Origin: Paracoccus sp. MBLB3053
Lineage (GTDB): Bacteria; Pseudomonadota; Alphaproteobacteria; Rhodobacterales; Rhodobacteraceae
Assembly (NCBI RefSeq): GCF_031822435.1
Contig: NZ_JAVQLW010000001.1
Coordinates: 1,869,501-1,933,500, forward strand
Direction of reading: 5' to 3'
DNA: 64,000 bases
Shown here: piece by piece, positions 12,887 through 47,073 of the stretch
How the letters are laid out: each line of letters starts with the position of its first letter
Position numbering within the stretch: position 1 is the stretch's first letter
Position numbers and translations under genes: made by a program
Notes under the pieces: model-generated
Seen by the model: the letters and a program-made list of their open reading frames with translations, nothing else
Told to the model about the DNA's origin: nothing
Database searches by the model: none

Positions 12887-12926
12887 GGCCCCTGTTAGCC
12901 TGCGCAGTCCTGCCGCGAAAGTCCCA

Positions 12927-13409: not shown

Positions 13410-13472
13410 GTAAGATCAAAAATTGTGGCCATAGTAGAATATCATTGTTCGATCATTCTCCTAGGGAATTCC
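13410..13472. promoter_or_regulatory. Shared Lrp/lysE-type control region
   Basis: The 63 bp between the divergent Lrp and LysE-family starts are strikingly AT-rich for this genome and contain the partly symmetric GAATATCATTGTTCGATCATTC (described in parts: GAATATCATT then GATCATTC). Such regions are where Lrp-type regulators usually bind. Inferred from layout and composition. Confidence 0.4.
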
Positions 13473-34698: not shown

Positions 34699-35116
34699 AT
34701 GAAGCGTCGTTCCCTGATCCTGTCGGCCCTTGCAGCCCCGCTTGTTGGCTTCGCGCCACGGCGGGCACGGGCGGCAAAGCAGCTGCTGGATCAGGCAGGT
34801 GCGCTGCAACAGCTACGCGCCATTGCCGTCTGGCAGCGTGGGCAGGAGGTCGCTGCGCGCGGATACGGCGGATTCGATCCTGACCGGCCGACGAATATCA
34901 AGTCCGCCTCGAAATCGATCATCTCGGCCCTGGCCGGGATCGCGATCGCGAAGGGCCTGTTCTCGGGGCCGGATCACAAGGTGGCGGACGTGCTGGCGCG
35001 CGACCTTCCGAGCGATCCCGACCCGCGCATGGACGACCTGACGCTGGGCAACCTCTTGTCCATGCAGGCCGGGCTCGAACGGCAATCGGGGCCGAATTAC
35101 GGACGCTGGGTCAGCA
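34699..35116 (+). pseudogene. 5' half of a split serine hydrolase (beta-lactamase fold) gene
   Basis: Encodes the N-terminal part of a secreted serine hydrolase: an arginine-rich signal peptide (MKRRSLILSALAAPLVGFAPRRARA), then the nucleophile motif S-x-x-K in KSASKSIISALAGIAIAKG, and the LTLGNLLSMQAGLE block of beta-lactamase/esterase-type class C enzymes. The frame runs to NYGRWVS and then enters foreign DNA, where it stops four codons later at 35127. The remainder of the gene is at 47062-47630. Joining the two halves at the 12-bp repeat restores one frame of 324 residues, reading NYGRWVSSRNWVRAAL across the junction. Confidence 0.93.
35105..35116 (+). repeat. attL core
   Basis: GCTGGGTCAGCA, identical to the copy at 47062-47073; bases on both sides differ, so the repeat is exactly 12 bp. 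It contains short inverted arms GCTG-GGT-CAGC, as often seen in tyrosine-recombinase crossover sites. The strand encodes RWVS of the split hydrolase. Confidence 0.88.
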
Positions 35117-35123
35117 AAGCAAC

Positions 35124-35330
35124 CTAGTTGTTATTGCTAGCTAATTCTTCATTTATTTCGTCTACCTGCACAGCTACCCGGCAATGCGGGCAGGCTGCAT
35201 CGCAGGGCTTGCGCACCAGATTGCCCTCGAAGAAGCATCCATGCGGGATGGGGATGATGTTCAGCTTCGGCGCAGAGCGGATATTGCCGGGGGCTGCCCT
35301 GCGGTCGGCGTAGTAGACGAACCTCGTCAC
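35124..35330 (-). CDS. Small Cys-rich protein of the element
   Basis: A 68-residue protein with four cysteines; CDAACPHCRVAVQVDE contains a CxxC pair, which suggests a small metal-binding knuckle together with the other cysteines. Its stop lies 8 bp from attL, so it is the last gene of the leftward operon. Its start overlaps the upstream gene by 4 bp. I do not recognise the family. Confidence 0.6.
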   Translation of the reverse strand: MTRFVYYADRRAAPGNIRSAPKLNIIPIPHGCFFEGNLVRKPCDAACPHCRVAVQVDEINEELASNNN

Positions 35331-35767
35331 GGCTTTGGCAAGCCGGGCTTGGCGGGCTGCCCGATGCTAACGCTGGCCGGGGGCGCGTCGGCTTGGCCGG
35401 GCGTCAGTATCTCTTGCTTGTCGGGCAGGCCCATAGTGCGGGCTATGAGCATCGGGTTGAACACCTCGACCAAGCCCAGCGTCAGGTTATATTCGTTCAT
35501 CACGTCCAACGCCATTTCCACCGGGCGCTGCAAATGTGGCTCCGTCAGCTCTGCGCCGGTGAAGGCACGGAGGCCGGTTATCGTCATGGCGCGGGGCGCG
35601 CTATAGCGGACGATGCGGCCAGATACAGCCTTCTCTACAACCAGCGGGTTGGCCTTGACCCAAGTGAAGTAAGCACGGGCATAGGACCAGAACCCCTCAG
35701 CCGTCATGGCCTCCGGGCTTACCCTGCCGAAGGCGTCGAGGCTCTGCCGCTGCCAGTCATCATTCAT
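35327..35767 (-). CDS. Hypothetical protein downstream of tape-measure gene
   Basis: A 146-residue soluble protein, family not recognised. The N-terminal half is aromatic-rich (GFWSYARAYFTWVKANPLVVEK), the centre has AMTITGLRAFTGAELTEPHLQRPVEMALDVMNEYN, and the C-terminus is proline-rich (PGQADAPPASVSIGQPAKPGLPKP). Overlaps both neighbours (4 and 8 bp), so it belongs to the structural-like operon. A tail or virion-accessory role is possible from position only. Confidence 0.65.
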   Translation of the reverse strand: MNDDWQRQSLDAFGRVSPEAMTAEGFWSYARAYFTWVKANPLVVEKAVSGRIVRYSAPRAMTITGLRAFTGAELTEPHLQRPVEMALDVMNEYNLTLGLVEVFNPMLIARTMGLPDKQEILTPGQADAPPASVSIGQPAKPGLPKP

Positions 35768-36188
35768 GCAACACCACCGGCCATTGGATCGGATAATCGG
35801 TCAGGTGCTGGGCCTTCTCCCACTCAGCGCCGAGGGCGTAGCGGATGTCATCAACGGTGGCCGCCGTAGCGGGCGGGTTGCCGAAGATCATCACATGCCG
35901 CCCGTGTAGCTCGGCCATATCCTGGAAGGGGCGGAAGGGCCGCAGGAAGCGATTGATCAAATCCGACCACTCGGGCGTATCGAACCTGAAAGAAAGCACC
36001 CTTAGTTGGTCCTCACCTTTCAGATTGAAGACGAGGCGGCTATCGGTCTGGTAGGTGTTATAGATGAGGTAGGGGATGCCAACAGCACGGTAATGCGCAC
36101 GAATCTGGGCCTCCGCATGGGGCGGCACCTCTTGCTCACCCCGGAGGGGTCGACCTACCTGCTTACCAAGTTCATCCCATGTCGTCAT
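35760..36188 (-). CDS. Hypothetical protein following tape-measure gene
   Basis: A 142-residue soluble protein of unknown family. It contains VPPHAEAQIRAHYRAVGIPYLIYNTY, FRFDTPEWSDLINRFLRPFRPFQ and HGRHVMIFGNPPATAATVDDIRYAL. The start overlaps the tape-measure-like gene stop by 4 bp (ATGA type). In tailed phages the genes right after the tape measure encode distal tail or tail-assembly proteins; that is the only hint of role. Confidence 0.65.
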   Translation of the reverse strand: MTTWDELGKQVGRPLRGEQEVPPHAEAQIRAHYRAVGIPYLIYNTYQTDSRLVFNLKGEDQLRVLSFRFDTPEWSDLINRFLRPFRPFQDMAELHGRHVMIFGNPPATAATVDDIRYALGAEWEKAQHLTDYPIQWPVVLHE

Positions 36189-38311
36189 TCTGTCGGCACC
36201 TGTGTTCCTGTATCGACGCTGCCATAGCCAAGCACCGCCCGCTCGGTCGGCGTGGCTGGTACAAAGCTTGCCAATGCGCCGCGAATGGCCCCCGCTATCT
36301 CAGCGCCAATGCCACTGAGGCTTGTGCGGAAATCATCGGCCCCGCCTTGTAGTTGTGCGCGTTGGTAGTCCGCCGCCGACATGGTCATGCTGGCCGCCGT
36401 GTCGAAGTCCTGCGTCACCTTCTGGCCTATGTCTCCAAACGCGTAGCCAATTGGCCCTGTAACCTCGTTAATCAGATCGGCCGGGTTGGGGGTTACTGCC
36501 TGCGGCCTGCCACCCTTTGCGGCGTAGTCAGCATAGATCTGGCTGACCATCTGATCTTCGCCCTTGTTGGCCTCCGTGGGGTGAAGCCCGTAGCTCAGCC
36601 CGACCGCAGGCCCAGCGTAGGGGATGGGCGGGAGCTTGGTGGCTCCGTAGGTCAACACCGCCCCTGCGGCCTTCTTGGCTGTGCCCCAAATCCCTTTCAT
36701 CCAGCCGCCGTCCTTGCCGCCAATGCCGCCAGTGTTGTCGGCAATCTGGCCCGTGTTCTGTGCGATGACACCCAAGGTCTGCACGATGGGGTCGCGGCTG
36801 GTAATGGCGGAAAGCGTCATCGCCCCCAGCACAGGCGCGGAGGTAAGAGCGGCGTTAACACCTAGCAGAGCCGCACCAGCGGCAGCCGGGTTGTTGCCCG
36901 CTCTGGTCACAGCGTCTGTGGCCGCGTCCAGCACCGCCTTGGCAGCGGGCATCAAAGGCGTGAGGGCGGTGGCCCCAAGGTTCTCAACTTGGCTGTTTAG
37001 CGCCTCGCGCATGCTTTTGAAGCTGGGATTTGTAATCGCGTATTGCGGGTTGGTCTTGAGTGCCCGGTCGCGCTCGCGCGTGTTGGCGTCGAGGTTCATA
37101 ATGGCATCGGTCAGGGCGCTGATACCGCCCTGCTTACTGAGGCCGAGCTTGTTGTCCAGGTAGCTGGAAATGGCGCTGGCGTCGGTTAGATCGATGTTGT
37201 CCTTCCGCAGCAGCGGGATGATCTCATCGCGCACTGTCGCGTTGAAGTCGCGGCCAAAATCTGCCGCGATGGTGCTGCGGCCCTGCCTGTCACGGAGGCC
37301 GATAGCTTGCTGGGCGGCGGTATCCTCGGCGTTAAGGTTGCCGCGCGTCAGGTCGCTAATGAGTTGGTCGATTTGGCCAGTGCCACGCGACCCGGCACTG
37401 TCCCGGTTCAGGGCGATTTGCAGCAGGGTTTCCGGGCTTATCATGTTCTTAAGCTGCGGGCTTTGCTGCAACATGCGGTAGACGTTGGCCATGTCCAAAT
37501 CGCCGCCGCTTGCGATGCTGGCTTGGAGCATGGCCTCGCGGTAGGCTTGAGCTTGCGGCCCCTGTTGCCCGAGCAGGTTGAGCGACTTCTCCATCATGCG
37601 GGCTTGGTCGCTGGCAGCGTCGGCTGTCTTGCCGGTGGCCGCTTGGATGACCGCCATATCCCGCGCAATGGCGTTCATAAGATCTTCGGCTTTGGCCGCG
37701 CCGTCGGTGGTGCCCAAGTCAAAGGTGTTGGCATCTCGGAAGGCTTCCATCAGGCCCGCTTGGCTGGCCACCGGGTAGGCCGCGCTGACACGCCCCGCCA
37801 TGCGCTCCACGCTGGCTGTCTGCTCATCCGTATAGCCTGCGGTGCCATAGGCGGTGCGGACGGTGTCCATATTCAAGGCACCCCGGCCAGCGGCAGCATT
37901 GAAGCTCCCCAAGCCTTGCTGGAAACCTCGCGCCATTTGCGCGCCAATGCTGGCGGCGGCCCCGCCTAGCATATTGGCGGCAAAGCCCTGCAAGGTCAGG
38001 TTAACGCGTAGCCGCTTGTTAGCCAGTCGGTTGATCTCTTGTTGGGTGGCTTTGAAGTTGTTTCGCACCTGTTGGCTGTCGCGCACCAAGGGGCGGAAGG
38101 GGTTGCGGGACGACCTCTCAAGCTGCCTTGCGGCTGACAGAAGCTCGCGGTTGATGTTGCGCAAGCTACGCTCGTCCAGCCCCGGAATCTTGATGCCTCT
38201 GGCATTGCCCGCCGTTTTGAAGAGCTTGGCCAATTCTTTGTTGATGGCTTGCAGCGACTTGGTCGACTGATCGTTTACCCGAAGTGTGGCCTGTTCAACA
38301 AAGCTAGCCAT
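36185..38311 (-). CDS. Phage tail tape-measure-like protein
   Basis: A 708-residue protein, the largest in the element. The first ~130 residues are rich in charged heptad-like text (SLQAINKELAKLFKTAGNARG; NINRELLSAARQLERSS; RNNFKATQQEINRLANKRL), consistent with coiled coil. Next comes an Ala/Gly/Gln-rich helical middle with repeated short blocks, and a hydrophobic stretch near residues 480-515 (AAGAALLGVNAALTSAPVLGAMTLSAI). This composition and the N-terminal style match tape-measure proteins that set tail length in siphophages and myophages. I see no lysozyme or peptidase domain at the C-terminus. No other clear tail gene (tube, sheath, baseplate hub) is present, which is odd. Alternative: a large helical protein of another function. 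Confidence 0.6.
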   Translation of the reverse strand: MASFVEQATLRVNDQSTKSLQAINKELAKLFKTAGNARGIKIPGLDERSLRNINRELLSAARQLERSSRNPFRPLVRDSQQVRNNFKATQQEINRLANKRLRVNLTLQGFAANMLGGAAASIGAQMARGFQQGLGSFNAAAGRGALNMDTVRTAYGTAGYTDEQTASVERMAGRVSAAYPVASQAGLMEAFRDANTFDLGTTDGAAKAEDLMNAIARDMAVIQAATGKTADAASDQARMMEKSLNLLGQQGPQAQAYREAMLQASIASGGDLDMANVYRMLQQSPQLKNMISPETLLQIALNRDSAGSRGTGQIDQLISDLTRGNLNAEDTAAQQAIGLRDRQGRSTIAADFGRDFNATVRDEIIPLLRKDNIDLTDASAISSYLDNKLGLSKQGGISALTDAIMNLDANTRERDRALKTNPQYAITNPSFKSMREALNSQVENLGATALTPLMPAAKAVLDAATDAVTRAGNNPAAAGAALLGVNAALTSAPVLGAMTLSAITSRDPIVQTLGVIAQNTGQIADNTGGIGGKDGGWMKGIWGTAKKAAGAVLTYGATKLPPIPYAGPAVGLSYGLHPTEANKGEDQMVSQIYADYAAKGGRPQAVTPNPADLINEVTGPIGYAFGDIGQKVTQDFDTAASMTMSAADYQRAQLQGGADDFRTSLSGIGAEIAGAIRGALASFVPATPTERAVLGYGSVDTGTQVPTE

Positions 38312-38327
38312 GACTTACCTCTTGAGT

Positions 38328-38747
38328 TTACCCAAGGCTGCTCCCGCGCCAGAAGCCGCCACCGCCAGCAGGGGCGGGTTCCTTCTTCGCCACCGGGGCT
38401 TGGTCGGATTTGGGCTTCTGGCGTTCCGCTTGGGAGACAACGCAACCTTTGGCGGCCGTGCCCGGCAGATACCGCTCAGGCAGTACACTGATGGACGGGG
38501 GCCGCATGAGAATCTTTGCGGGAGCGGGCAGGTTGGGCGGCCGATAAACCCAGCCTTCAGCATCGCCGCGCTGCACGAAATGGCCTAACAGCCAAGCCTC
38601 GACCTTGAAGCGAGTGTCGTCCTGCACTTGGCCACCGTAGGCGAGGCGCTCAATGTCCTGCACCGAAAGGGCAAGGGCGGTTTTCATGCTTGCCCGTTGC
38701 TCCGGCGTCTGGCGGCTCAGCAGCAGCTCCAATGTCTCAGTTTGCAT
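38328..38747 (-). CDS. Small helical-domain protein with Pro/Gly tail (paralogue B)
   Basis: A 139-residue protein. Residues about 3-60 form a short helical domain (LELLLSRQTPEQRASM, ALALSVQDIERLAYGGQVQDDTRF, EAWLLGHF) that aligns with two neighbouring small proteins at 38737-38928 and 39611-39799. The C-terminal third is basic and then glycine-rich (PVAKKEPAPAGGGGFWRG), a low-complexity tail. It sits directly upstream of the tape-measure-like gene, where tail-assembly chaperones usually lie, but the helix-turn-helix-like domain argues against that. Function unknown. Confidence 0.65.
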   Translation of the reverse strand: MQTETLELLLSRQTPEQRASMKTALALSVQDIERLAYGGQVQDDTRFKVEAWLLGHFVQRGDAEGWVYRPPNLPAPAKILMRPPSISVLPERYLPGTAAKGCVVSQAERQKPKSDQAPVAKKEPAPAGGGGFWRGSSLG

Positions 38748-38928
38748 GGTGGACCTCGAAATGTGCAGCGAGCAGGCGGGCCACCGTGTGGTCGCGGGGC
38801 TTGTTTGGATCGGGGTGAAGGAAGCGATCTAGCTCCCCGTTGGACAGCCCACACTGGTAGCGCAGAGCGGTGCGCTGCTCAGGGCTAAGGGCTTTGATGC
38901 GTTCTCGCAGGGCTGGCCAATCAGTCAC
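38737..38928 (-). CDS. Small helix-turn-helix-like protein (paralogue A)
   Basis: A 63-residue protein made almost entirely of one helical domain: LRERIKALSPEQRTALRYQCGLSNGELDRFLHPD then DHTVARLLAAHF. I prefer the GTG start at 38926-38928, which overlaps the protease stop as GTGA; an ATG 15 bp upstream gives a 68-residue version. It overlaps paralogue B by 11 bp. The pattern (PEQR, LS-x-x-EL, final recognition-like helix) suggests DNA binding, but no family is recognised. Confidence 0.6.
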   Translation of the reverse strand: MTDWPALRERIKALSPEQRTALRYQCGLSNGELDRFLHPDPNKPRDHTVARLLAAHFEVHHAN

Positions 38929-39398
38929 GCGTCGTCCTCCCATTTCGTCATCTTGGCGTGTGGGTTGGCTGGCTCCACCACAAGGCTCACCTCTTCAAGC
39001 TCGCCACGGATAATCTGCAAGTATTCGACGCCGTTGCGGCTCACGATGTCCGCATCGAGAATGAAGAACCCGACGCTGAAGTTGAGGCCATTGTTGACGC
39101 GCACTGCAGCTGCCCAATCTCGGCTCCAGCTGATGCCCTCGTCCAGCAGGGCCTCCAGCCAAAGGCCACCGTTGCGTTGTTCCAGACGCGTGATGACGCC
39201 TGCGGGCTTGCCCATGTCGTGCTTGATGACCAGCTTGACGCCGCCCGGCCCACCCAAGCCCTTGCGGGCGATGCTGGCGGCAAAGGCTCCCGGCTCCACA
39301 ATGTGCCCCGCCCAGTCCGGTTCTGGCACGCTGGCCCAGCCTTCGATCTTCAACTGCTCATCCTCCACATCAGCTTGAGGAACTCTGGTGGCCAGCAC
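38925..39398 (-). CDS. HK97-type prohead protease
   Basis: A 157-residue serine protease of the phage prohead-maturation class (peptidase U35-like). The N-terminal LKIEGWASVPEPDWAGHIVEPGAF matches the family opening. The catalytic His is in VKLVIKHDMGKPAGVITRLEQ and the Ser in GLNFSVGF, and the C-terminal ELEEVSLVVEPANPHA is diagnostic. It normally cleaves scaffold and capsid precursor during head assembly, yet no capsid gene exists in the element. The start is a GTG; an open frame continues upstream without a better start. It follows small phage-like genes in the leftward operon. Confidence 0.88.
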   Translation of the reverse strand: MLATRVPQADVEDEQLKIEGWASVPEPDWAGHIVEPGAFAASIARKGLGGPGGVKLVIKHDMGKPAGVITRLEQRNGGLWLEALLDEGISWSRDWAAAVRVNNGLNFSVGFFILDADIVSRNGVEYLQIIRGELEEVSLVVEPANPHAKMTKWEDDA

Positions 39399-39454
39399 AG
39401 CAACTGCTTTGCACTTATGCGGCGGCCTGCCGGGGTGTTGAGGCCGAGGATCAT
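39350..39454 (-). CDS. Possible 34-residue ORF
   Basis: A short frame (MILGLNTPAGRRISAKQLL onward) that starts as ATGA on the stop of the 57-residue gene and overlaps the protease start by 49 bp. It could be a real mini-gene or only a translational bridge to the GTG-started protease. No family evidence. Confidence 0.25.
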   Translation of the reverse strand: MILGLNTPAGRRISAKQLLCWPPEFLKLMWRMSS

Positions 39455-39624
39455 TGCCGCGCCTCCCGCTCTAGTGCTGCGTCAATGGCGGCCTCAGCCT
39501 CCGCAAGGGTCGCGTATCCTCGTTTAATCCGCTGGTATTGGTCGGCCCAAGCATCCCGCTTGATGCCGGGCGGCAGGCTGTCGCGCACGGCGGCAACACG
39601 GGCGAGGCGTTCATCCGGGCTCAT
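39451..39624 (-). CDS. Small hypothetical protein (57 aa)
   Basis: Encodes 57 residues, opening MSPDERLARVAAVRDSLPPG and containing ADQYQRIKRGY and LAEAEAAIDAALEREARQ, an alpha-helical, highly charged protein. It fills the space between two supported genes and overlaps the upstream one by 14 bp, which supports it being real. Function unknown; charged helical proteins of this size in phages are often head- or tail-accessory factors. Confidence 0.5.
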   Translation of the reverse strand: MSPDERLARVAAVRDSLPPGIKRDAWADQYQRIKRGYATLAEAEAAIDAALEREARQ

Positions 39625-39799
39625 GCAGCGCCTCCAGATGCTTGATGAGCCTTTCCTGCATCCGCTCGCTGACGTAGCCGCCTTCCGCCCATGACTCGAT
39701 CATCCAGAAAGGCACCGCCATCCGCTGCGCTAGGCGCTGGGCGGCTTTAGGCGGCAGGCCCCTTAACTGTCGCAGCAATGGCTCAGGCAGGTTGCTCAC
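39611..39799 (-). CDS. Small helix-turn-helix-like protein (paralogue C)
   Basis: A 62-residue protein with the same short domain as the products at 38328 and 38737: LLRQLRGLPPKAAQRLAQRM, VPFWMIESWAEGGYVSERMQ, RLIKHLEALHEPG. The shared spacing is PEQ/PKA-x6-L-x6-L/V-x5-I/L-x3-GG. Overlaps the upstream 86-residue gene by 4 bp. Family not recognised; perhaps a regulator or adaptor. Confidence 0.6.
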   Translation of the reverse strand: MSNLPEPLLRQLRGLPPKAAQRLAQRMAVPFWMIESWAEGGYVSERMQERLIKHLEALHEPG

Positions 39800-40056
39800 C
39801 TCATTGCGTCCTTCAAATCGCGCAGCAGGCCGGACAGCTTTTCGACAGGGTTGGCCGGGGCCACGCTGGCCGCCTTCCGAATGCGCATCAAATCGGCAAT
39901 GTCCTCGCCGCTGAGTTTCTTGCCGTCGCGCGCCTTGGCAGTCAGGTTCATCGCCCTCTGCGCCTGCTCGTGGCTCAGATGCTTGACGTCATATGCAGCA
40001 AGGCCGGTGAAGGGCGTGCCGAGCAGACGACCATCTCGGATGAACGGCTGGGTCAT
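39796..40056 (-). CDS. Hypothetical protein (86 aa)
   Basis: An 86-residue soluble helical protein, containing LLGTPFTGLAAYDVKHLSHEQAQRAMNLTAKARDG and a lysine-rich C-terminal helix (PVEKLSGLLRDLKDAMR). Overlaps both neighbours by 4 bp, so it is second in the leftward operon. I do not recognise it. Confidence 0.6.
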   Translation of the reverse strand: MTQPFIRDGRLLGTPFTGLAAYDVKHLSHEQAQRAMNLTAKARDGKKLSGEDIADLMRIRKAASVAPANPVEKLSGLLRDLKDAMR

Positions 40057-40289
40057 GACTGGCCACCGGGTGGCTTGGGCGGCCCCTCGTTGACGATGCG
40101 ATAGGCGTCCTCGTGGCTCTCGCCCTTGGCGCGGAGCGCGAGATAGGCCGCTTCCTTCTCGGTGATGGACTTTGTGATCAGTTGCCGGGCGAACTTGCTG
40201 GCGGTGGTGCCATGCTTGCAGGCAATGCGCGAGAAGGCTGCCTTTTCGTCCTTACTGACGACAACTTGGATGGTATGGCTTCTTGGCAT
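40053..40289 (-). CDS. Ribbon-helix-helix-like DNA-binding protein
   Basis: A 78-residue protein. The N-terminal strand and two helices (SHTIQVVVSKDEKAAFSRIACKHGTTASKFARQLI) fit a ribbon-helix-helix domain like those in plasmid mobilisation and antitoxin proteins. The ATG at 40289 follows AAAAGGAG with 8-nt spacing and is better than an upstream frame extension. As first gene of the leftward operon it is well placed to autoregulate it. No relaxase is present, so a mobilisation role is unlikely. Confidence 0.65.
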   Translation of the reverse strand: MPRSHTIQVVVSKDEKAAFSRIACKHGTTASKFARQLITKSITEKEAAYLALRAKGESHEDAYRIVNEGPPKPPGGQS

Positions 40290-40663
40290 GGGCGTTCTCC
40301 TTTTGCCCCATGCCCCATAATAGGCCCCGCCCCTATTAGCTCGCAAGCTTTTTTGCATGGTAAAATGCAGGGCTTACATCCAACAAGCCTCTGCATATAT
40401 GGGATAATTAACTAATTACGGCTGTTGTTGCGGTTGCTTAATTGGCAACCGGACGTCGCGGGCTGAACCCCCATTTTCCTCGCCCGCAGGGGGCCTTGCG
40501 CTGCGGCCCTATGCCCCCTAGCCGGGCAGGCCGCCTCGGCCCTGCTAGGGGCCTTGCAGCGGAGGAATGGGGCATGCGCAGGGCAGGCGTGGGGCGCGGC
40601 GCTGGGCAGGCTTGCCCACAGGGGGGCGCGCGTGCTCAATAAGCCAAAATCGAGGAGGTTTGG
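40290..40663. promoter_or_regulatory. Divergent promoter region with nested hairpins
   Basis: This 374-bp gene-free stretch separates the leftward operon from AbiTii. An AT-rich part (40321-40445) holds a 7-bp hairpin CGGTTGC/GCAACCG at 40431-40451. A GC-rich part follows: GGGGCCTTGC occurs twice (40490-40499, 40548-40557), and CCCCTAGC (40515-40522) is inverted as GCTAGGGG (40544-40551) inside a longer imperfect dyad flanked by CGCTGC and GCAGCG. It should hold promoters for both directions; I cannot place the -10/-35 boxes with confidence. Confidence 0.5.
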
Positions 40664-41581
40664 ATGGCAAGTAGCTTGATCGGGGAAATCACTGAAGGGG
40701 CGATGACGGGCGAGAAAAGCCTAGTCACTTTGCTTCGGATGATGAAAGTTGCTGCGCTGCGTCTAGGACTCCCAGAAGTTGAGTCATGGGTGGACACTGA
40801 ATTAAACGGTTATGTCGAAGAGGAGGACGTTCCCGAATATCGTAATGTCACGGGGCAAGTAGTCGTCAAGAGCCATTATCGAGGTTGGGAGATTGTCTCG
40901 GGAGATCCTATAACTTTAAGCATAATGCAGCAGCGCAACCTTGGGGCTTCTGTTGCTCTGCTTGAAACGATGATGGCCCAAGCAATGTCTAACGGTAACT
41001 CCGGCACATTCACGATTTTCTTCTCTCCCCAAATAGTAGAAAAATTCATTGAAGGAAACGCAGGGCATATAGCGGCGGCGGGAACGCGGATCACTTCCGG
41101 TCAAGTTGCCGCAGTGCTAGATCACGTCCGGGGCAAAATTCTTGACTGGGCAATTGAGATGGAAAAACAAGGGGTGGTGGGGGAGAATATGACGTTTAGT
41201 AAGGAAGAGAAGGAGGAGGCTGCGCGTGTGATGAATAACATCACGGTCCATGGTTCCGTTGGGACATTCGCAGGGAATATCGGTGCGGGAAACGCGAGCG
41301 GTGCAATTACCGTAAACACCGTCGATATTCCCGAAGCCCTTAATCTCGCGCGAGAGCTTCAACAACATACTCCAGCGTTGATTGCGGCAGGCGCAACTCC
41401 CTCTCTTGAAAGGACAGTTGCGGAAATAAACATAGAGCTATCGTCCCCGAATCCCGACACCGGTCGGGTTGGGGGATTGGTCGATCTAGCGAAAAACGCA
41501 TTGGCAGGGGCGTCCGGAAACTTGATGGCCACAGGTGCCATTGCGCTGCTTGAAAAGATCGTCACTTCCATTGGCGGCTAA
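40664..41581 (+). CDS. AbiTii domain abortive-infection protein
   Basis: A 305-residue protein. The first ~70 residues carry the AbiTii pattern: SLIGEITEGAMTGEKSLVTLLR, MKVAALRLGLPEVESWVDTELNGY, then a PEYR motif. AbiTii was named for an abortive-infection factor that makes cells die or stop growing when phage infect. The C-terminal part has Gly/Asn-rich text (NITVHGSVGTFAGNIGAGNASG) and ends in a hydrophobic helix (LMATGAIALLEKIVTSI). Base composition is clearly lower in GC than neighbours, indicating separate transfer. A GAGGAGG ribosome site precedes the ATG. It is the only gene of the element on the plus strand, so it is expressed independently, as expected for a defence cargo gene. Confidence 0.82.
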   Translation: MASSLIGEITEGAMTGEKSLVTLLRMMKVAALRLGLPEVESWVDTELNGYVEEEDVPEYRNVTGQVVVKSHYRGWEIVSGDPITLSIMQQRNLGASVALLETMMAQAMSNGNSGTFTIFFSPQIVEKFIEGNAGHIAAAGTRITSGQVAAVLDHVRGKILDWAIEMEKQGVVGENMTFSKEEKEEAARVMNNITVHGSVGTFAGNIGAGNASGAITVNTVDIPEALNLARELQQHTPALIAAGATPSLERTVAEINIELSSPNPDTGRVGGLVDLAKNALAGASGNLMATGAIALLEKIVTSIGG

Positions 41582-41929
41582 CCCCGCGGAGGCAAGAATA
41601 TTGGGCCGAAATAGACCCGTTTTGTGCAAATTTAATTAAGGGGAACCTCCCCCTAGTTATCCCCCTCATTAAGTCCCCTAGTTTAAGCCCTAAGCCTTTA
41701 ATATATATAAAATAAATAATAGGGGGGAATAGGGGGCAAGGGGCGCAGCCTTCTGGGGGACTGCTGAAAATCTAGGCAGTTTGTGAGTGCTTGGCCGTGA
41801 CTGTGACGGTGAAATTGGCTGCCCGTACCCCCCTATACCCCCCTATTAATTTCCCTTTATTACCAATAGCTTGGCTTTCAAATAGGGGCAGCCCCCTTAT
41901 TGCGCCCCCTATTTGCGCGTCCCCCTTAT
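41582..41929. other. Gene-free AT-rich region with C/G-run repeats
   Basis: These 348 bp lie between the 3' ends of AbiTii and the DUF3987 ATPase gene. They contain about ten copies of C4-6-T(T)A-T/G in both orientations (for example CCCCCTAG at 41649, CCCCTAG at 41675, CCCCCTTATT near 41892 and 41921) and the AT run ATATATATAAAATAAATAAT (41701-41720). Repeats plus AT-rich DNA beside a replication ATPase suggest an origin; a bidirectional terminator is the other option. Confidence 0.45.
41717..41848. repeat. 20-bp inverted repeat of tandem G/C runs
   Basis: TAATAGGGGGGAATAGGGGG at 41717-41736 is matched in reverse complement, 19 of 20 bases, by 41829-41848. Each arm is itself two tandem runs. 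The 92 bp between the arms contain no gene. Confidence 0.85.
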
Positions 41930-43501
41930 TCAAAAGCGACGAAGCACAAAAACCCATTCCGGCTTCGGGCCGCGCCTGTCTCGCTCTCCGCGCGTTTGTT
42001 CTTTAATCGCGCCGAGAGTCTTGTCGTCAATCATATCTTGGATTTCGGCTTTCACCTGAGCGCCAAGGCCGGTCTTATCCTTGACAAGCCGGTTTAGCGC
42101 CCCGCGCTTGACTTCGAGCCGGTCGTTGATGCCTTGCCGAGCATCAGCGCCCCATTCGTCTAAGCTCCTGGAAAACGCCGCCTTAATTGCTCCGCGTATT
42201 CTTTGTGGGGCGGGAGCGCCGGAATCAACCACTCCTGTATCTGCGGCCATGTCGATGACAAACTGGAGGCTTTCCTTGACGAAGGCGGCGGACCACCGCA
42301 CGGTTTGGATGCTGATGCCGGTCTCCCATTCACCGGCGGCAATGCCGCAGATTGTCGCAATTCGATTAATGGCCTCCACCATCCGCTTGGCAACATAGCG
42401 CACCAGCAGGTCTCGTTTTTCATCGCGGGAGATTGTATCATATTCGAGCCGCAGCGACTTCAGGTATTCATCAGCCTCTGCGCTGTATTGGATAACGTAA
42501 GAGAAATGCGCCAGAAGCGGGGTTTGCTTGATCTCGCACTTCAAGGGGTTGGACGACAGGCCGCCAGTGGGCACCATGGGCGGGGCGAGCTTGATGAACT
42601 GATTAATCTCCTTGATGAGAGCATCGGAAAACTGTGGCCGCTTTTCATACTCAATAAGATCAAGGTCCGGGATCTGGATGAAAAGCATTCGTCCTAACTC
42701 ACCGAGTGCCGCGAACTTCTTGTCGTACTTTTGTAGCAACTCATTCTGGATGCAAAGGAGCGCGGAAAGCTGGGGGCAGGGCAGGGGTTCGGTCGTCCGT
42801 TTGTCATCGGCGGACGGCTCTGGATCAATGCCGGTTTCATATGCGGTGTAGATCAGCGCCATCATGCGGCGCGAACTATCAGAGTGCTCGCCAGTGGCAC
42901 CAAGGATGCCGGACGCCTCTTCATTGATGATGTTAACCGCAGCGATGGGGGAGCGGCTGGCATACTGCAGAAGACCCGGCCCGGACTTCGGGCGGCTGAT
43001 GAATACGGCGGCGGTGTTGTTTGCCAAATACGTCTTGTAGTCGGCGAATAACTTGATCGCCGTGCTTTTCCCGCTACCCGTCCCGCCGACGAGAACCAGC
43101 ATCGCGCAAGGCGGGGTGTAGTGGCCGTCCCAGTAACTAACGAATTTTCCCTGCACCATGACCGAGAAGGAAACCAGCGCCGCGCCAAGCTGAGGAATAA
43201 GTGTTCCGCGCTCTGCGCGTTTGGCCGCGCCTTCGCGCACCATTCGCCCAATCAGCCCCGGCGCGTTCCACGCCAGCGCTTCGATCAGCGAGGGCTGCTC
43301 AATAGGGTATGGAGTGCCTGCGATCCACGGTCCGTAGATGCGCCGGTTTTCCTCAATTGAGGCGAGGCGGTGGCTTTCTAGCTTTTCGTCCTTCGCGGCC
43401 TCGTCCGCTAAGGCTTGTCGCCATTCTGCTTCAAGCGCTTCGTTATGCGCTTCGGCTGGATCCTTGATTGCCTGCCATTCCATTTTCCCACGGTCATCCA
43501 T
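41930..43501 (-). CDS. DUF3987-type replication ATPase/helicase-like protein
   Basis: A 523-residue P-loop protein. Walker A is GGTGSGKST at residues 139-147, and the surrounding text (LIPQLGAALVSFSVMVQGKFVSYWDGHYTPPCAMLVLVGGTGSGKS split over the strand) is typical of DUF3987 proteins, which follow primases in phages and satellites and act as replicative helicases or loaders. Conserved downstream blocks are INEEASGILGA and LFIQIPDLDLIEYEKRP. The start overlaps the primase stop by 8 bp. With the primase it forms the element's replication module. Confidence 0.75.
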   Translation of the reverse strand: MDDRGKMEWQAIKDPAEAHNEALEAEWRQALADEAAKDEKLESHRLASIEENRRIYGPWIAGTPYPIEQPSLIEALAWNAPGLIGRMVREGAAKRAERGTLIPQLGAALVSFSVMVQGKFVSYWDGHYTPPCAMLVLVGGTGSGKSTAIKLFADYKTYLANNTAAVFISRPKSGPGLLQYASRSPIAAVNIINEEASGILGATGEHSDSSRRMMALIYTAYETGIDPEPSADDKRTTEPLPCPQLSALLCIQNELLQKYDKKFAALGELGRMLFIQIPDLDLIEYEKRPQFSDALIKEINQFIKLAPPMVPTGGLSSNPLKCEIKQTPLLAHFSYVIQYSAEADEYLKSLRLEYDTISRDEKRDLLVRYVAKRMVEAINRIATICGIAAGEWETGISIQTVRWSAAFVKESLQFVIDMAADTGVVDSGAPAPQRIRGAIKAAFSRSLDEWGADARQGINDRLEVKRGALNRLVKDKTGLGAQVKAEIQDMIDDKTLGAIKEQTRGERDRRGPKPEWVFVLRRF

Positions 43502-44378
43502 GCTGGGGTTCCTTGATGAGATCGTTCCAGTCCATACCTTGCGGTGCGGGGATCACCTGCACTCGCCAGCCCAGCGCGGCGGCGGCAAGCTGGCTGGCCG
43601 CTGCCATGCCAGCTTCATCAGCGTCAGGCGCGATGAGTAGTTGGTCGCCGGGGTCGGGGTCGGGCAACCGCAGGGCCGCCATGCCCGAAGAACTAAGAGC
43701 CGACCAGACAGAGACGTCATGCCCGAAGTAATCCGCCAGCGTGTCGCACATTAGCGCCAGCCCGTTCTCTATGCCCTCTGCGACGATTACCTTGCTAAGA
43801 TCACCGAAGCGCAGCGGCACATGCCCGCCGCTGACCGGCCCGAGCGACATTTTGATATTGTCGACCGCCGCCTTGCGGCCGTGCTGGTCAATGTAAATGC
43901 GATGGATCGCAGGTGGGCCGCCGCGCACGAACGCCACAATGGCAGGAAGGCATCTGTCGACAGCGCCATGATAGAGGGCGGGGTGGAAGCGCAGGCTGGG
44001 CGGCAGCGGGCAGGAGAGACCGCGGAGGCGGAAATAGGCCTCGCCCGGCGTGCCCTCGATGGGCTGAGCCTGTTCCCATGTTTGCTTCGCCCTGTCGGAC
44101 TGCCGCTGTTCATGCTCGCTGATGCGGCGTCGAGCTTCGTCTGGGTCAAGCTGGTCTATCGGCCACAGGCGCAGCCGCCTGAGTTCTTGGATGATGTCCC
44201 AAGACCGGCAGCCGGACCGATGGCACCAGAACCACAGCCTGCCCTCTTCGTTGTAGCGCATGGAAAGACCGTGTTGATCCCTCCGCGCTTCTGGCTGGCA
44301 TATCGGGCACGGCGCGTTTCCTCGAAGCTCGCCCGCCTTGCCACCAAGGGCCTCTGCCAGATCGGAGAGGTCAGTCAT
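43494..44378 (-). CDS. Zinc-finger and Toprim primase
   Basis: A 294-residue DNA primase-like protein. The zinc finger is Cys24-Cys27 (CPIC) with Cys52 and Cys57 (CHRSGC), as in phage and satellite primases. The Toprim domain has the catalytic Glu201 in VIVAEGIENGLA and the Asp252/Asp254 pair in IAPDADEAG. It lacks a helicase domain; the adjacent DUF3987 ATPase supplies that part. It would prime replication of the excised element. It overlaps its neighbours on both sides (4 and 8 bp). Confidence 0.87.
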   Translation of the reverse strand: MTDLSDLAEALGGKAGELRGNAPCPICQPEARRDQHGLSMRYNEEGRLWFWCHRSGCRSWDIIQELRRLRLWPIDQLDPDEARRRISEHEQRQSDRAKQTWEQAQPIEGTPGEAYFRLRGLSCPLPPSLRFHPALYHGAVDRCLPAIVAFVRGGPPAIHRIYIDQHGRKAAVDNIKMSLGPVSGGHVPLRFGDLSKVIVAEGIENGLALMCDTLADYFGHDVSVWSALSSSGMAALRLPDPDPGDQLLIAPDADEAGMAAASQLAAAALGWRVQVIPAPQGMDWNDLIKEPQHG

Positions 44379-44518
44379 CGCGCCCCAGCCTCGCTATACG
44401 CCCCGCTGGGCAGGGTCTCGCGCCCCGGCAAGGGGGCAGGGGCCGGGGGCGCTGCCGGGCCTGCTGCGGGCAATGCGCGGCCATGCGCCCCAAAGGCGTT
44501 AAAGGGATCGTCTTGCAT
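44375..44518 (-). CDS. Small Ala/Pro-rich protein before primase
   Basis: A 47-residue, Ala/Pro-rich protein (MQDDPFNAFGAHG start). I choose the ATG at 44518 because GGAGG lies 9 nt upstream (44528-44532); a TTG-started version extends to 44617. Its stop overlaps the primase start by 4 bp, so it may act mainly as a translation leader. Unknown function. Confidence 0.45.
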   Translation of the reverse strand: MQDDPFNAFGAHGRALPAAGPAAPPAPAPLPGRETLPSGAYSEAGAR

Positions 44519-44834
44519 GGAGAGCGGGCCTCCTGTTCCATTGGTTAGGACGCTGATCAAAGCGTCAGGATGTTTGCCCCTTTTGAGCCGGTCCCATGAG
44601 GCGGGGGCACCCAGCAAGCTGGTTGATCATTGCCACCCGCCGACCATGGAACTGGCCCAGCTAAAAGCTATTATGCCTGCGCCCCAAAGGCAAGCAAAAA
44701 ATGCAGTATATACAAAGGTTTATGCTATCCGATAGGGCTTTTCTATTGGATCATGCTGCATCCGATTGAAGAACGCCCTGCAACCATTGCGTGTGCTATG
44801 CCAGCACCCGCATCGAGGTTGCAGAACAACGGGA

Positions 44835-44856
44835 TAGGCCGGGTTTCCCCGGCCTA
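44835..44856 (-). terminator. Hairpin after the acidic-protein genes
   Basis: Perfect 8-bp stem TAGGCCGG/CCGGCCTA with a 6-nt loop, 8 bp past the stop of the 62-residue gene. On the minus strand the tail is TCCCGTTGTT. It separates the alpA/acidic-protein unit from the primase unit. The 240 bp between it and the primase leader gene show no further gene. Confidence 0.55.
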
Positions 44857-44863
44857 CCGTGCA

Positions 44864-45052
44864 TTATTCCGTGCTTTCGTCGTCCGTGCTTTCGTCCTCG
44901 TCCGGGCCTTCGTCCAAGATGATGAGCGGGCTGCTGCCGTCATGAACGAAATCCCCGACGAAGCTCTCTTCGATCTTGTAAATCGCATCCTCTTCGTGGT
45001 CAGCTCGAACGATCCCGAAGAGGTTACTGCACCAGAAACGATAACGCGTCAT
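44864..45052 (-). CDS. Small acidic protein 1
   Basis: A 62-residue, strongly acidic protein with the C-terminal run DEGPDEDESTDDESTE. N-terminal RYRFWCSNLFGIVRADHEEDAIYKIEE resembles the neighbour's VRAFVVEFGEHALAVEAEDESEAVQKLDE. Overlaps that neighbour by 4 bp. Very acidic small proteins in mobile elements can mimic DNA (anti-restriction or anti-repressor); this is inference from composition only. Confidence 0.6.
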   Translation of the reverse strand: MTRYRFWCSNLFGIVRADHEEDAIYKIEESFVGDFVHDGSSPLIILDEGPDEDESTDDESTE

Positions 45053-45252
45053 CCCTCGTCCTCCGTGCTGTCCGAGGACTCACCCAGAGAGATGAACGGG
45101 CCGTCGTCATCCGAATAGATGTCCGGAAACTCGCGCTTCAATCCGTCGCGAAGCCACTCATCCAGTTTCTGGACAGCTTCGGACTCGTCTTCGGCTTCCA
45201 CCGCAAGGGCGTGTTCACCGAACTCAACGACAAACGCTCTCACGTCAGCCAC
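45049..45252 (-). CDS. Small acidic protein 2
   Basis: A 67-residue acidic protein; roughly a third of residues are Asp or Glu, ending in SDDDGPFISLGESSDSTEDEG. It starts with GTG at 45250-45252, 13 bp inside the alpA gene, so it is coupled to it. The N-terminal beta-strand then helix (ESEAVQKLDEWLRDGL) and the DDDGPFISL block match the downstream acidic protein, suggesting duplication. Function unknown. Confidence 0.62.
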   Translation of the reverse strand: MADVRAFVVEFGEHALAVEAEDESEAVQKLDEWLRDGLKREFPDIYSDDDGPFISLGESSDSTEDEG

Positions 45253-45401
45253 TCCCGCACTTCATCAAGCGACCAGCGGGTGCAGCCGGGACTGAAACGG
45301 CGCGGCTGCGGCAGCCTGCCTTGCGCCGCCCAGCGCCATACGGTGGCCGGGCTGATGCCGAGCGCGGCGGCGAGGTCTTTCACAGATAGATGGTTTTGCA
45401 T
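45240..45401 (-). CDS. AlpA-like helix-turn-helix regulator/excisionase
   Basis: A 53-residue DNA-binding protein below usual ORF-length cut-offs. It reads MQNHLSVKDLAAALGIS with PATVWRWAAQGRLPQP and ends RWSLDEVREWLT, the winged helix of the AlpA/excisionase class of P4-like elements. In such elements it activates or directs the nearby integrase in excision. It lies 358 bp from the integrase stop with the dyad array in between. SD AAAGGGA precedes the ATG; the stop lies inside the next gene. Confidence 0.82.
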   Translation of the reverse strand: MQNHLSVKDLAAALGISPATVWRWAAQGRLPQPRRFSPGCTRWSLDEVREWLT

Positions 45402-45514
45402 AGCAAAATCCCTTTCATGCGATCGCAGGAAGGGGGAGCAGCACCGTGCTGGGTTTTACCTATGCAGGGCCAAAGTGGGGCAGACCGGGGTGATTCGTCA
45501 ACACGCTTTCGGCA

Positions 45515-45541
45515 GGGTGTACCCTAATTTATGGTACACCC
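45515..45541. promoter_or_regulatory. 27-bp dyad A
   Basis: GGGTGT, 15 bp, ACACCC. The symmetry extends to GGGTGTACC/GGTACACCC. The central 15 bp (ACCCTAATTTATGGT) occur in perfect reverse complement in dyad B. Confidence 0.8.
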
Positions 45542-45572
45542 CATACTCGCGCGCATTAGCGGCTTGGATGAA

Positions 45573-45599
45573 GGGTGTCTTGCAACTTGCAATACACCC
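45573..45599. promoter_or_regulatory. 27-bp dyad C
   Basis: GGGTGT, 15 bp, ACACCC, same arms and spacing as dyad A but with a different centre, CTTGCAACTTGCAAT, which holds two TTGCAA units. Starts 58 bp after dyad A. Confidence 0.75.
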
Positions 45600-45673
45600 C
45601 AGCATCGACCAGCGTTTTGGTGCATGGGTTTACCATAAATTAGGGTATACCCCAGCATCGACCAGCGTTTTGG
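45596..45673. repeat. 25-bp direct repeat, two copies
   Basis: ACCCCAGCATCGACCAG followed by CGTTTTGG occurs at 45596-45620 and 45649-45673, 53 bp apart, each copy starting in the right arm of a dyad (C and B). Dyad plus repeat therefore looks like a duplicated unit. Confidence 0.85.
45626..45652. promoter_or_regulatory. 27-bp dyad B
   Basis: GGGTTT, 15 bp, ATACCC. Reverse complement matches dyad A at 25 of 27 positions, with the central 15 bp identical. Starts 53 bp after dyad C. Confidence 0.8.
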
Positions 45674-45759
45674 GAACTGGCTGTCTAAGAGCGGTATTGC
45701 AAATTGCAAGACCGTCGCAGACAACTCAACCCTCTTCCGCATGCGCAGCCTAGCCGAGA

Positions 45760-46908
45760 TCATCGAGCGCCCAAATAATCCGACCACGCCTGCATAAGCT
45801 CCCGCCGCGCATCCAGCATGTCGCTCCGCGCATATGCCCGTTCGGTCTTGCTGCCGGGGGCATGCGCCAGCGCCAGTTCCGACAACCGGTGGTCATAGCC
45901 CTGCTCGTCCGCCCAATCCTTGAAGCAGGACCGCAGGCCGTGGACCGTTAGCTGCCTGCCATCGGTCGGCGTGAAGCCGGGGATGCGCAGGATGACCGCG
46001 CGCTGGGTGCTGTCGCTGATGGGGCCACCGCTGTGGCCGGGAAAGAGGAAAGGACCGCGCCGAGGAAGTGCTGCAAGCATTTCCACGCATGCGGAGGGCA
46101 GGGGAATGCGATGCGGCCTGCCCATCTTCATCCGGCTGGCCGGGACCGTCCACACGCCGTCCTTGATCTCGTCCCACCTGGCCCCGGCTGCCTCCTGCGT
46201 CCGACAGGCGGTCAGCATCAGCCATTCCAGCGCTCTGGGGCCGCTGCCAGCTTCGCGCCGCAGCGCCGCCATAAAGGCCGGGGCTTGCTGCCAAGGCAGC
46301 GCCGCATGGTTTTTGTTGCTGGCCTTCACCTCGGGCAGCAGAAGCTTGACGTGCGCGGCGGGGTTCTCACCCTGCCGCTCCCCCTTGACGGTGGCCCAGT
46401 TCAGCACGGCTTTCAGATGGGTGAGGGTGCGCTTGGCTGTTTCATGTGTCTCAGTCCAGATGGGCAGCAGCGCCGCTTCAACATCGTTGGGCTGGATCTT
46501 GGCCACCGTCGGCAGCTTCAGCTTGAGCAGGGCTTCCCGCCACTGCTGGTTGTGCGGCGTGTCGGGTTTGGTAGCGAAGTAACCTTCCACCGCCTCTGCG
46601 AACGTCATGGGCGCGGCGGCCTTGGCGGCAGCGCGGGCGTCCTTGCGCTCTTGGATCGGGTCCGCACCTTCGTGGTTGATGCGGAAGCGCATGGCCTTTG
46701 CAACCTCGCGCGCCTTGGCTAGCGGCAGTTCGGGGTAGCCGCCGAGGCCGATGCTGCGGCGTTTGCCCGCGATGCTGACATTGAGAAGCCAACTGGCCCC
46801 GTTGCCCACCTTCTGTATGTAGAGGCCCGGCACCCCGCCCACCGCGTGCACTCCCGGCCCCAGCGCCTTGACGGCGAGTGCGCTCAACTCGTTTGCTTTC
46901 CTTGGCAT
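45760..46908 (-). CDS. P4-type tyrosine integrase
   Basis: A 382-residue tyrosine recombinase that should integrate and excise the element. The N-terminal DUF4102-type arm-binding domain is seen in LSALAVKALGPGVHAVGGVPGLYIQKVG and RRSIGLGGYPELPLAKAREVA. Catalytic residues: Arg near 235 (TACRTQEAAG), His-x-x-Arg near 323 (VHGLRSCFKDW), His in LALAHAPGSKTERAY and the nucleophile Tyr near 357 (RAYARSD). The ATG at 46908 follows TAGGAG; two upstream Met codons give slightly longer forms. Integrases of this group usually target tRNA genes, but here the site lies in a protein gene. Confidence 0.93.
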   Translation of the reverse strand: MPRKANELSALAVKALGPGVHAVGGVPGLYIQKVGNGASWLLNVSIAGKRRSIGLGGYPELPLAKAREVAKAMRFRINHEGADPIQERKDARAAAKAAAPMTFAEAVEGYFATKPDTPHNQQWREALLKLKLPTVAKIQPNDVEAALLPIWTETHETAKRTLTHLKAVLNWATVKGERQGENPAAHVKLLLPEVKASNKNHAALPWQQAPAFMAALRREAGSGPRALEWLMLTACRTQEAAGARWDEIKDGVWTVPASRMKMGRPHRIPLPSACVEMLAALPRRGPFLFPGHSGGPISDSTQRAVILRIPGFTPTDGRQLTVHGLRSCFKDWADEQGYDHRLSELALAHAPGSKTERAYARSDMLDARRELMQAWSDYLGAR

Positions 46909-47061
46909 AGCTCCTAGCATCCTACCCAGCATCCTAAGTAGGATTATATGCGGCTGAACGCGACAAGTTGCAATACGGATGCGCGGCGGCTCTCTCTTAA
47001 GTTGATGTTATACAATCGTAATTCGAGACGGGTTGAGACGGACTGAGACATGCGTGCAGGT
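46909..47061. promoter_or_regulatory. Integrase promoter and attR arm region
   Basis: AGCATCCTA is repeated at 46917 and 46928, and ATCCTAC/GTAGGAT (46919-46925, 46938-46944) can form a hairpin just upstream of the integrase. TTGCAATAC at 46968 repeats a motif of the dyad array. GAGAC occurs three times in 10-bp phase (47025, 47035, 47045), ending 13 bp from the attR core. These are likely integrase or accessory-factor binding sites. Confidence 0.5.
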
Positions 47062-47073
47062 GCTGGGTCAGCA
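47062..47073 (+). repeat. attR core
   Basis: Second copy of GCTGGGTCAGCA; the host gene resumes in frame from here. Confidence 0.88.

Follow-up and report, generated by a model that had tools for sequence, protein, structure and literature searches.

A stretch of 64,000 nucleotides from Paracoccus sp. MBLB3053 (contig NZ_JAVQLW010000001.1, positions 1,869,501 to 1,933,500; the whole stretch is hereafter called the window) harbours an integrated element of 11,957 bp, which is probably a satellite resembling the phage-inducible chromosomal islands (PICIs) that exploits a contractile phage of the Milano/7-7-1 type, i.e., a Schmittlotzvirus-like phage. It would use its own small terminase subunit (TerS) for packaging and brings a private tape measure protein (TMP). 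That the element is a satellite of some kind is likely, and use of its TMP in particles is reasonably likely. What looks new is that a satellite without capsid genes adds its own head protease, and that it does so recurrently.

A discrete integrated element with a packaging gene

The element is real, discrete, integrated and intact-looking. It spans positions 35105-47061, and a further copy of its 12-bp core is present at 47062-47073. This repeat, together with an empty site in relatives, confirmed the extent (35105..47073) and integrity proposed in an initial annotation made from the letters alone. The two halves of the interrupted target gene, which we take to encode a serine-hydrolase-like protein, adjoin in all five same-genus loci compared. 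Its 5' half was matched in nine of 12 other same-genus genomes, where the open frame comprises 334-446 aa compared with 161 aa here; two of these nine matches (35% and 56% identical) may represent paralogs. The GC content is 0.54 inside the element and 0.64-0.68 in its flanks. Near the right end, within the element (46960-47060), short repeats of the GAGAC type are candidate integrase arm sites.

All 19 open reading frames (ORFs) of the element were scanned against Pfam and PHROGs. The integrase, AlpA, primase, DUF3987 ATPase, AbiTii protein and HK97-type (S78) prohead protease of the initial annotation were all recovered by profile. Its statement that a terminase is missing proved wrong, as ORF 35327-35767 encodes TerS (PHROG 606; P22 gp3, 3p9a). 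It had also counted the protease and the tape measure as the only two virion genes; both identities stand, while the count does not, as TerS is present in addition. Portal, capsid, tail tube, lysis and conjugation genes were correctly described as absent, and none of the 19 ORFs gave a match for the large terminase subunit (TerL), sheath or baseplate. Other head, tail, lysis and conjugation families yielded nothing in these ORFs beyond chance-level matches and one NikA-like match below the cut-off. In its integrase and attachment repeats, and in the absence of genes for a virion of its own, the element agrees with satellites in general, whose packaging in helper particles is predicted for it. 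The features most relevant here are:

35105..35116, no strand: attachment core repeat, left copy, GCTGGGTCAGCA, exact 12-bp direct repeat with 47062-47073
47062..47073, no strand: attachment core repeat, right copy, GCTGGGTCAGCA, pair of the left copy
35327..35767, minus: TerS, P22 gp3 type (PHROG 606, E 6.9e-17; Pfam GP3_package, E 3e-5, below cut-off; PDB 3p9a, E 1e-8)
36185..38311, minus: TMP, 708 aa, Milano/7-7-1 type (by homologs, synteny, fold and tree)
38925..39398, minus: S78-type prohead protease, 157 aa (Pfam PF04586, E 9.5e-10; PHROG 80, E 1.2e-19)

The 708-residue protein is a tape measure protein

Sequence, neighbours and predicted fold identify the 708-aa protein as a tape measure protein, as initially proposed. 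Pfam gave no match for it and PHROGs none of significance, and a search of about 5.8 billion proteins, in which the 7996 top word-sharing candidates were scored, returned nine remote relatives. Alignments revealed conservation of an N-terminal FVEQATLRVNDQS-type motif, of the core and of the C-terminus, which together with a helical fold characterize the Milano-type family, and the homologs from phages Milano and OLIVR4 carry the database annotation 'tape measure protein'. A pattern scan yielded three loci in genomes and 17 in viral contigs. At least two Milano-type virion genes reside beside the TMP gene in all 17 viral loci and in the Bradyrhizobium locus L003 (18 of 18 phage loci); where these neighbours occur, they are arranged as sheath, tube, tail chaperone, TMP and DNA-circularisation protein. 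L002 and L004 are the two of the 20 scan loci without flanking Milano-type virion genes.

The AlphaFold model is almost all-helical, with a confident core at residues ~141-460, unsure ends and a mean pLDDT of 60. This structure prediction, suggested in the initial annotation as a check, placed the 7-7-1 homolog first in a Foldseek comparison with viral models (E 7e-14), followed by many tape measure and minor tail proteins. In the PDB, neither a fold search with the TMP nor sequence searches with the TMP and the protease gave a significant match. A scan of the viral contigs with the window TMP as sole query detected no relative, and tblastn of the L005-type TMP (P0004) against phages gave no match.

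Tape measure genes of the Milano type outside phages

Six loci carry a Milano-type TMP gene outside a phage: the window, L002, L004, L058, L059 and L060. L002 from Mesorhizobium albiziae encodes an integrase, a primase-helicase, TerS (PHROG 4044, E 1.5e-23), the TMP, an antiterminator-like protein and an S78 protease; its 21.6 kb yielded no further virion gene of the Milano type, and comparison of its stretches gave no repeat of 13 bp or more. In L004 from Paracoccus methylarcula, the TMP gene adjoins a PHROG 606 TerS gene and is split into two pieces of opposite orientation, and this locus is the only TMP match among 124 genomes of its genus searched. The others stem from a survey of 394 genomes of the M. 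albiziae family, in which two candidates per genome were scored and TMP-profile matches were obtained in 19 genomes, M. albiziae included. Afterwards, 20 regions were examined, 19 from the other 18 genomes and one from the Paracoccus genome. L058 is an 18.2-kb element with 120-bp repeats encoding the TMP, a gp14-like connector, a protease and TerL; L059 (23.8 kb) has a 29-bp repeat located in tRNA-Thr and carries TMP and TerS (PHROG 51); in L060 the TMP gene is followed by a chaperone gene, and boundaries and integrase were not found. Across the six loci, the protease occurs in three, TerS in four, and TerL, connector and chaperone in one each, while Milano/L005-type portal, major capsid protein, sheath, tube, DNA-circularisation protein, hub and baseplate J are encoded in none of the stretches read.

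As a side observation, L002 (12492-12869) and L058 (9032-9313) share a gene for a 93-125 aa protein adjoining the TMP gene (E 5e-11), with no counterpart in the phage loci searched. This may be a satellite-specific TMP partner.

These loci bear on the idea that the element is what remained of a Milano-type prophage after deletion of its head and tail genes, with TerS, protease and TMP kept by chance. In favour of such a remnant, complete phages contain homologs of both TMP and protease, Bradyrhizobium has a Milano-type prophage-like region (L003/L034/L035), and the Paracoccus copy L004 is broken. The initial annotation had named complete homologous phages as the finding that would point to one, and homologs of the genes indeed exist. 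However, the genes of the phages run protease, capsid, sheath, tube, chaperone and TMP with TerS elsewhere, whereas the window has a single operon protease-TMP-TerS, and L002 carries the same trio in the order TerS-TMP-protease. Since the order is not colinear with phages and the trio is arranged differently in L002, the element is not a simple deletion remnant. In addition, the six loci hold subsets only and lack the same bulk parts every time, and the element has its own integrase, AlpA and primase, with its frames open. We therefore regard a remnant as quite improbable.

In a tree of 24 TMPs, the window TMP is sister to L005, P0002 and P0003 (99/98). Five label changes were counted for the five intact satellite rows (4.3 on average with shuffled labels), and the scattered positions of the satellite TMPs are best read as repeated capture. 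Note that some branches are long, that the L060-Milano join rests on two of them and that the tool issues a warning. Tree and length comparison (see below) leave out the cut-off loci L007, L012 and L020, the near-duplicates L008, L011 and L014, L016 and L017, for which there is no measurement, and OLIVR4.

A second tape measure clade paired with an unrelated head protease

The survey of Rhizobiaceae together with Bradyrhizobium revealed a second clade of TMPs of ~640-765 aa with starts such as MAKTLVGQL, for which 12 loci are listed (L033, L061 to L066 and L068 to L072). When four of these TMPs were scanned against PHROGs, those of L063 (E 4.8e-8) and L061 (E 3.7e-8) matched tape-measure families, and those of L064 and L066 matched no tail family. 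In L070, a head maturation protease of PHROG 53 (E 3e-74) is encoded directly downstream of the TMP. Homologs of this protease are present in six of the 12 loci (L062, L063, L065, L068, L070 and L072; partial in L065) and were confirmed by PHROG in five. The protease gene of L062, L068 and L070 comes after the TMP gene at a distance of no more than 225 bases and in the same orientation. In L063 and L072, the two genes are separated by ~4 kb and occupy opposite strands.

The six protease-bearing loci were read around the TMP over 8-17 kb, and 72 of their ORFs were scanned. The best 25 of 72 families matched include tail protein, tape measure and integrase, as well as 'terminase large subunit' matches in three ORFs; portal, capsid and sheath families are not among these best 25. 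In L064, a match to a terminase-large-subunit family (12459-13859; PHROG 2666, E 1e-9) corresponds, named by eye, to a HerA-like ATPase. An ATPase of this kind, again by eye, recurs beside second-clade TMPs in L063, L065, L068, L071 and L072 and is perhaps a packaging ATPase. In L063 (7879-11565), genes for a small tail protein (PHROG 166, E 0.005), the TMP and a PHROG 52 tail protein (E 3e-54; hub-like by eye) are consecutive, with no sheath or tube seen adjoining, an arrangement that resembles the chaperone-TMP-hub trio of the satellite PLE11 described below.

The second clade matters for the view that the element is an ordinary PICI-like satellite for which only TerS counts, with TMP and protease as passive leftovers of recombination with a helper. 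TerS-bearing satellites are common, and L059 and L004 carry TMP and TerS with no recognised protease, in agreement with this view. It is countered by the scattered origin of the satellite TMPs, by the location of the TMP and protease genes inside the operon, and by the presence of the protease in three Milano-type elements and of an unrelated head protease in six second-clade loci. The pairing with PHROG 53 in the second clade makes passive leftovers slightly less likely, and we assign this explanation a low probability. The same pairing makes another reading likelier, which we put forward tentatively: a convergent class of alphaproteobacterial satellites may swap the parts that set specificity and dimensions (TerS or TerL, head protease, connector, chaperone, TMP) and steal the bulk parts. 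TMP and head protease would be the pair that marks it, brought together on at least two occasions with proteases of unrelated families (S78 with Milano-type TMPs and PHROG 53 with the second clade), and the protease itself would redirect the capsid, unlike scaffold-type or capsid-homolog factors.

The protease of the window retains His, Ser and Glu where it aligns with the phage proteases, as does that of L002; from HK97, we take these residues to be catalytic. It ends directly after the protease domain without a C-terminal extension and has 157 aa, compared with 153 aa in L002 and 242 aa in L058. A short protease was considered as a hallmark and rejected in view of the length in L058. Any particular role for the satellite protease is doubtful at present; control of maturation, a change in capsid size or sabotage of helper heads are guesses.

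Milano-like phages as candidate helpers

The TMP matches six records in INPHARED, i.e., those of OLIVR4, Milano, 7-7-1 (two records) and two Synechococcus phages. Identity to the TMPs of OLIVR4, Milano and 7-7-1 amounts to 22-26% over about half of its length; the match to the Synechococcus phages covers 42 residues only. The protease matches 19 records, the top six of which are the same six, and is 44-48% identical to the Schmittlotzvirus proteases. The Agrobacterium phages Milano, OLIVR4 and 7-7-1, all of the genus Schmittlotzvirus, are thus the nearest named relatives of both proteins and, unlike the element, are complete phages of 68-69 kb. Milano is a phage with a contractile tail, the structure of which is published, and like 7-7-1 it is flagellotropic (PMC10811340). 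Since TMP and protease match the same phages, the predicted helper group is Schmittlotzvirus-like. TerS of PHROG 606 was detected in two of 13 records searched (ten viral contigs, one genome and two phage genomes, many of them fragments), and its holders among the phage loci are L005, which has the closest TMP, and L010, which has the closest protease (tied with the overlapping contig L011). Proteins of the element with matches among phage-locus ORFs are the protease, the TMP, TerS and, weakly, AlpA, and nothing else; the sheath, tube, chaperone and DNA-circularisation genes that surround the TMP gene in a Schmittlotzvirus-type prophage have no counterpart here.

Several observations weigh against a Milano-type satellite. 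TerS of the window is only weakly similar to that of L005 (E 1e-5), and phages of Vibrio and of the P22 type rank highest among its matches in INPHARED. L005 has the weakest protease match among the nine listed, and its protease frame looks shortened; L010 has a weak TMP match (E 1e-7). As the affinities of TMP, protease and TerS are split over L005 and L010, a phage group is indicated and no single known phage as the source. Both TMP-flanking proteins (139 aa and 142 aa) are ORFans. No second TMP gene and no Milano-type sheath gene was seen in the host genome, the latter in a search without a positive control of its own, whose query detected the Bradyrhizobium sheath separately; the helper is therefore probably an outside phage. 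A search in other Rhodobacteraceae, as the initial annotation had suggested, produced no TMP relative in 197 other genomes of the family, nor was there one in 288 other genomes of the class (3-5 candidates scored each). Finally, the initial annotation had seen in the TMP a tail-length ruler that redirects particles. The element does bring its own TMP, which at 708 aa falls below the range of the 12 phage TMPs measured (770-1067 aa). Lengths of 750-1040 aa were obtained for the other satellite TMPs of the Milano type, and as a group the satellite TMPs do not differ significantly in length from those of phages (p = 0.057, 5 versus 11), such that tail shortening as a general purpose is unsupported.

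Besides its Milano-type prophage-like region (L003, L034 and L035), which includes TerL, portal, capsid, sheath and baseplate genes, the Bradyrhizobium lablabi genome also carries the second-clade TMP locus L033.

If the element is a satellite of Milano-like phages, its cycle can be pictured as follows. Upon infection by such a phage, the element would excise and replicate with its own primase and ATPase, and its TerS would divert the large terminase of the helper to element DNA. Portal, capsid, tube, sheath, baseplate and fibres would be supplied by the helper, while the satellite TMP would replace that of the helper and give rise to chimeric tails, as in PLE11. The satellite protease may join or replace the helper protease in the prohead. 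Besides marking particles as those of the satellite, such a swap of TMP and protease would compete with the assembly of the helper and might also adjust size.

Alternatively, the element could be a defence island that is not packaged and whose TMP and protease act as dominant-negative decoys wrecking head and tail assembly of the phage. Its AbiTii cargo would suit this role, and inhibition of tail assembly is a known defence strategy (PMC12987554; see also PMC10884400 and PMC11364771). On the other hand, TerS and replication genes have no obvious purely defensive role, the active-site positions of the protease are kept, and satellites are capable of both defence and packaging. A pure defence island is therefore unlikely.

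Further genes of the element

Leftward from the right end, the genes encode the integrase, an AlpA-like helix-turn-helix (HTH) protein, two acidic proteins, an 80-aa protein, a Toprim primase and a DUF3987 ATPase. The AbiTii gene lies on the opposite strand between these replication genes and the late operon, which runs leftward from 40358 to 35124 with mostly overlapping frames. In addition to the genes given above, the element contains:

35124..35330, minus: 68-aa protein, last late-operon gene, overlaps terS by 4 nt, no significant Pfam/PHROG family
35760..36188, minus: 142-aa ORFan between TMP and TerS, sole self-match in the 5.8-billion-protein search
38328..38747, minus: 139-aa ORFan upstream of the TMP gene, self-match alone in the database search, none in phage loci
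38737..38943, minus: 68-aa small protein, loosely resembles 39611-39799 and the start of 38328-38747
39451..39624, minus: 57-aa protein, no family by Pfam/PHROG
39611..39799, minus: 62-aa small protein, loosely resembles 38737-38943
39796..40056, minus: 86-aa protein, no family by Pfam/PHROG
40053..40358, minus: 101-aa ribbon-helix-helix-like protein, first late-operon gene, possible regulator (weak NikA-like/DUF6290 match below Pfam cut-offs)
40664..41581, plus: AbiTii-domain protein, candidate anti-phage cargo (Pfam PF18864, E 2.3e-40; PADLOC AbiTii, E 3.2e-40)
41930..43501, minus: DUF3987 ATPase, replication-associated (Pfam PF13148, E 1.2e-11; PHROG 3022 'DNA primase', E 3.2e-19)
43494..44378, minus: Toprim primase (Pfam DUF7146, E 2e-26, and Toprim_3, E 5.9e-13; PHROG 510, E 1.3e-35)
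44375..44617, minus: 80-aa protein, no family by Pfam/PHROG
44864..45052, minus: 62-aa acidic protein, no family by Pfam/PHROG
45049..45252, minus: 67-aa acidic protein, no family by Pfam/PHROG
45240..45401, minus: AlpA/excisionase-like HTH regulator (Pfam HTH_17, E 1.1e-10, and Phage_AlpA, E 2.8e-5, above cut-off; PHROG 66, E 1.3e-11)
45760..46932, minus: tyrosine integrase (Pfam PF00589, E 8.9e-14; PHROG 1, E 9.5e-48)

The 139-aa ORFan occupies the position of the tail chaperone in phages and has no similarity to it. The single-sequence fold of the 142-aa ORFan (pLDDT 43) was too poor for use. The proteins encoded at 38328-38747, 38737-38943 and 39611-39799 are loosely alike and perhaps represent a duplicated small DNA-binding domain. 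A frameshift that would split TerS into its ORF and 35124-35330 was considered and rejected, because the TerS C-terminus aligns without the latter. An Rfam search found no RNA in the element, and a scan for promoters and terminators gave counts no higher than in shuffled sequences.

Comparison with known satellites

PICIs of Gram-negative bacteria have an integrase, AlpA, a primase and TerS within ~12 kb. The element shares this size and the combination of integrase, AlpA, primase and a packaging gene. To our knowledge, neither a TMP nor a prohead protease belongs to the usual PICI set; as the element has both, we file it as PICI-like and not as a PICI. Capsid-forming PICIs (cf-PICIs) have a prohead protease among their head genes and bring capsid, portal and TerL, none of which the element encodes. 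The PICMIs of Vibrionaceae are small satellites of virulent phages with reduced gene content and, like the element, without a capsid-remodelling gene; the opening of the abstract that describes them mentions neither TMP nor protease (PMC10803314).

The closest parallel is provided by the PICI-like elements (PLEs) of Vibrio cholerae, whose TMPs build chimeric tails according to a report of 2026 (PMC12987554). PLE11 is likewise an integrated satellite with its own TMP, 20% identical to that of the helper, which enters virions in place of the helper's and gives tails shorter by 10 nm. Loss of tmp cuts transduction by ~99.9% in PLE11, 96% in PLE1 and 99% in PLE4. Like the element as we picture it, PLEs rely on a contractile helper for capsid, tube, sheath and fibres, and they carry anti-phage genes; putative tmp genes are also reported for PLE-like elements and, in the legend of Extended Data Fig. 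10, for cf-PICIs (PMC12987554). As far as gene content is described there, PLEs pair the TMP with a tail chaperone (TAC) and PLE11 also with a baseplate hub, whereas the element, which shares the satellite-encoded TMP, has ORFans next to it, no recognisable chaperone or hub, and TerS and an S78 protease instead. The initial view of a satellite that brings a head protease and a tail ruler of its own is supported and extends to other loci. A tail ruler by itself is not new among satellites, as satellite TMPs are already published for PLEs. In the titles and abstract openings searched, a scope that excludes most subscription papers and bioRxiv preprints, we found no description of a capsid-less satellite combining TMP and prohead protease, nor of TMP-bearing satellites in Alphaproteobacteria.

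With Milano-like phages named as the helper group, the gain from a private tape measure or protease becomes directly testable. Satellites are known for redirecting packaging and capsid size, and a swap of the tail ruler was not reported until 2026, in the case of PLEs. The element and its relatives appear to make this move in another bacterial class and at the expense of a different group of phages. They extend it by a head protease, in a combination that seems to have been assembled more than once.

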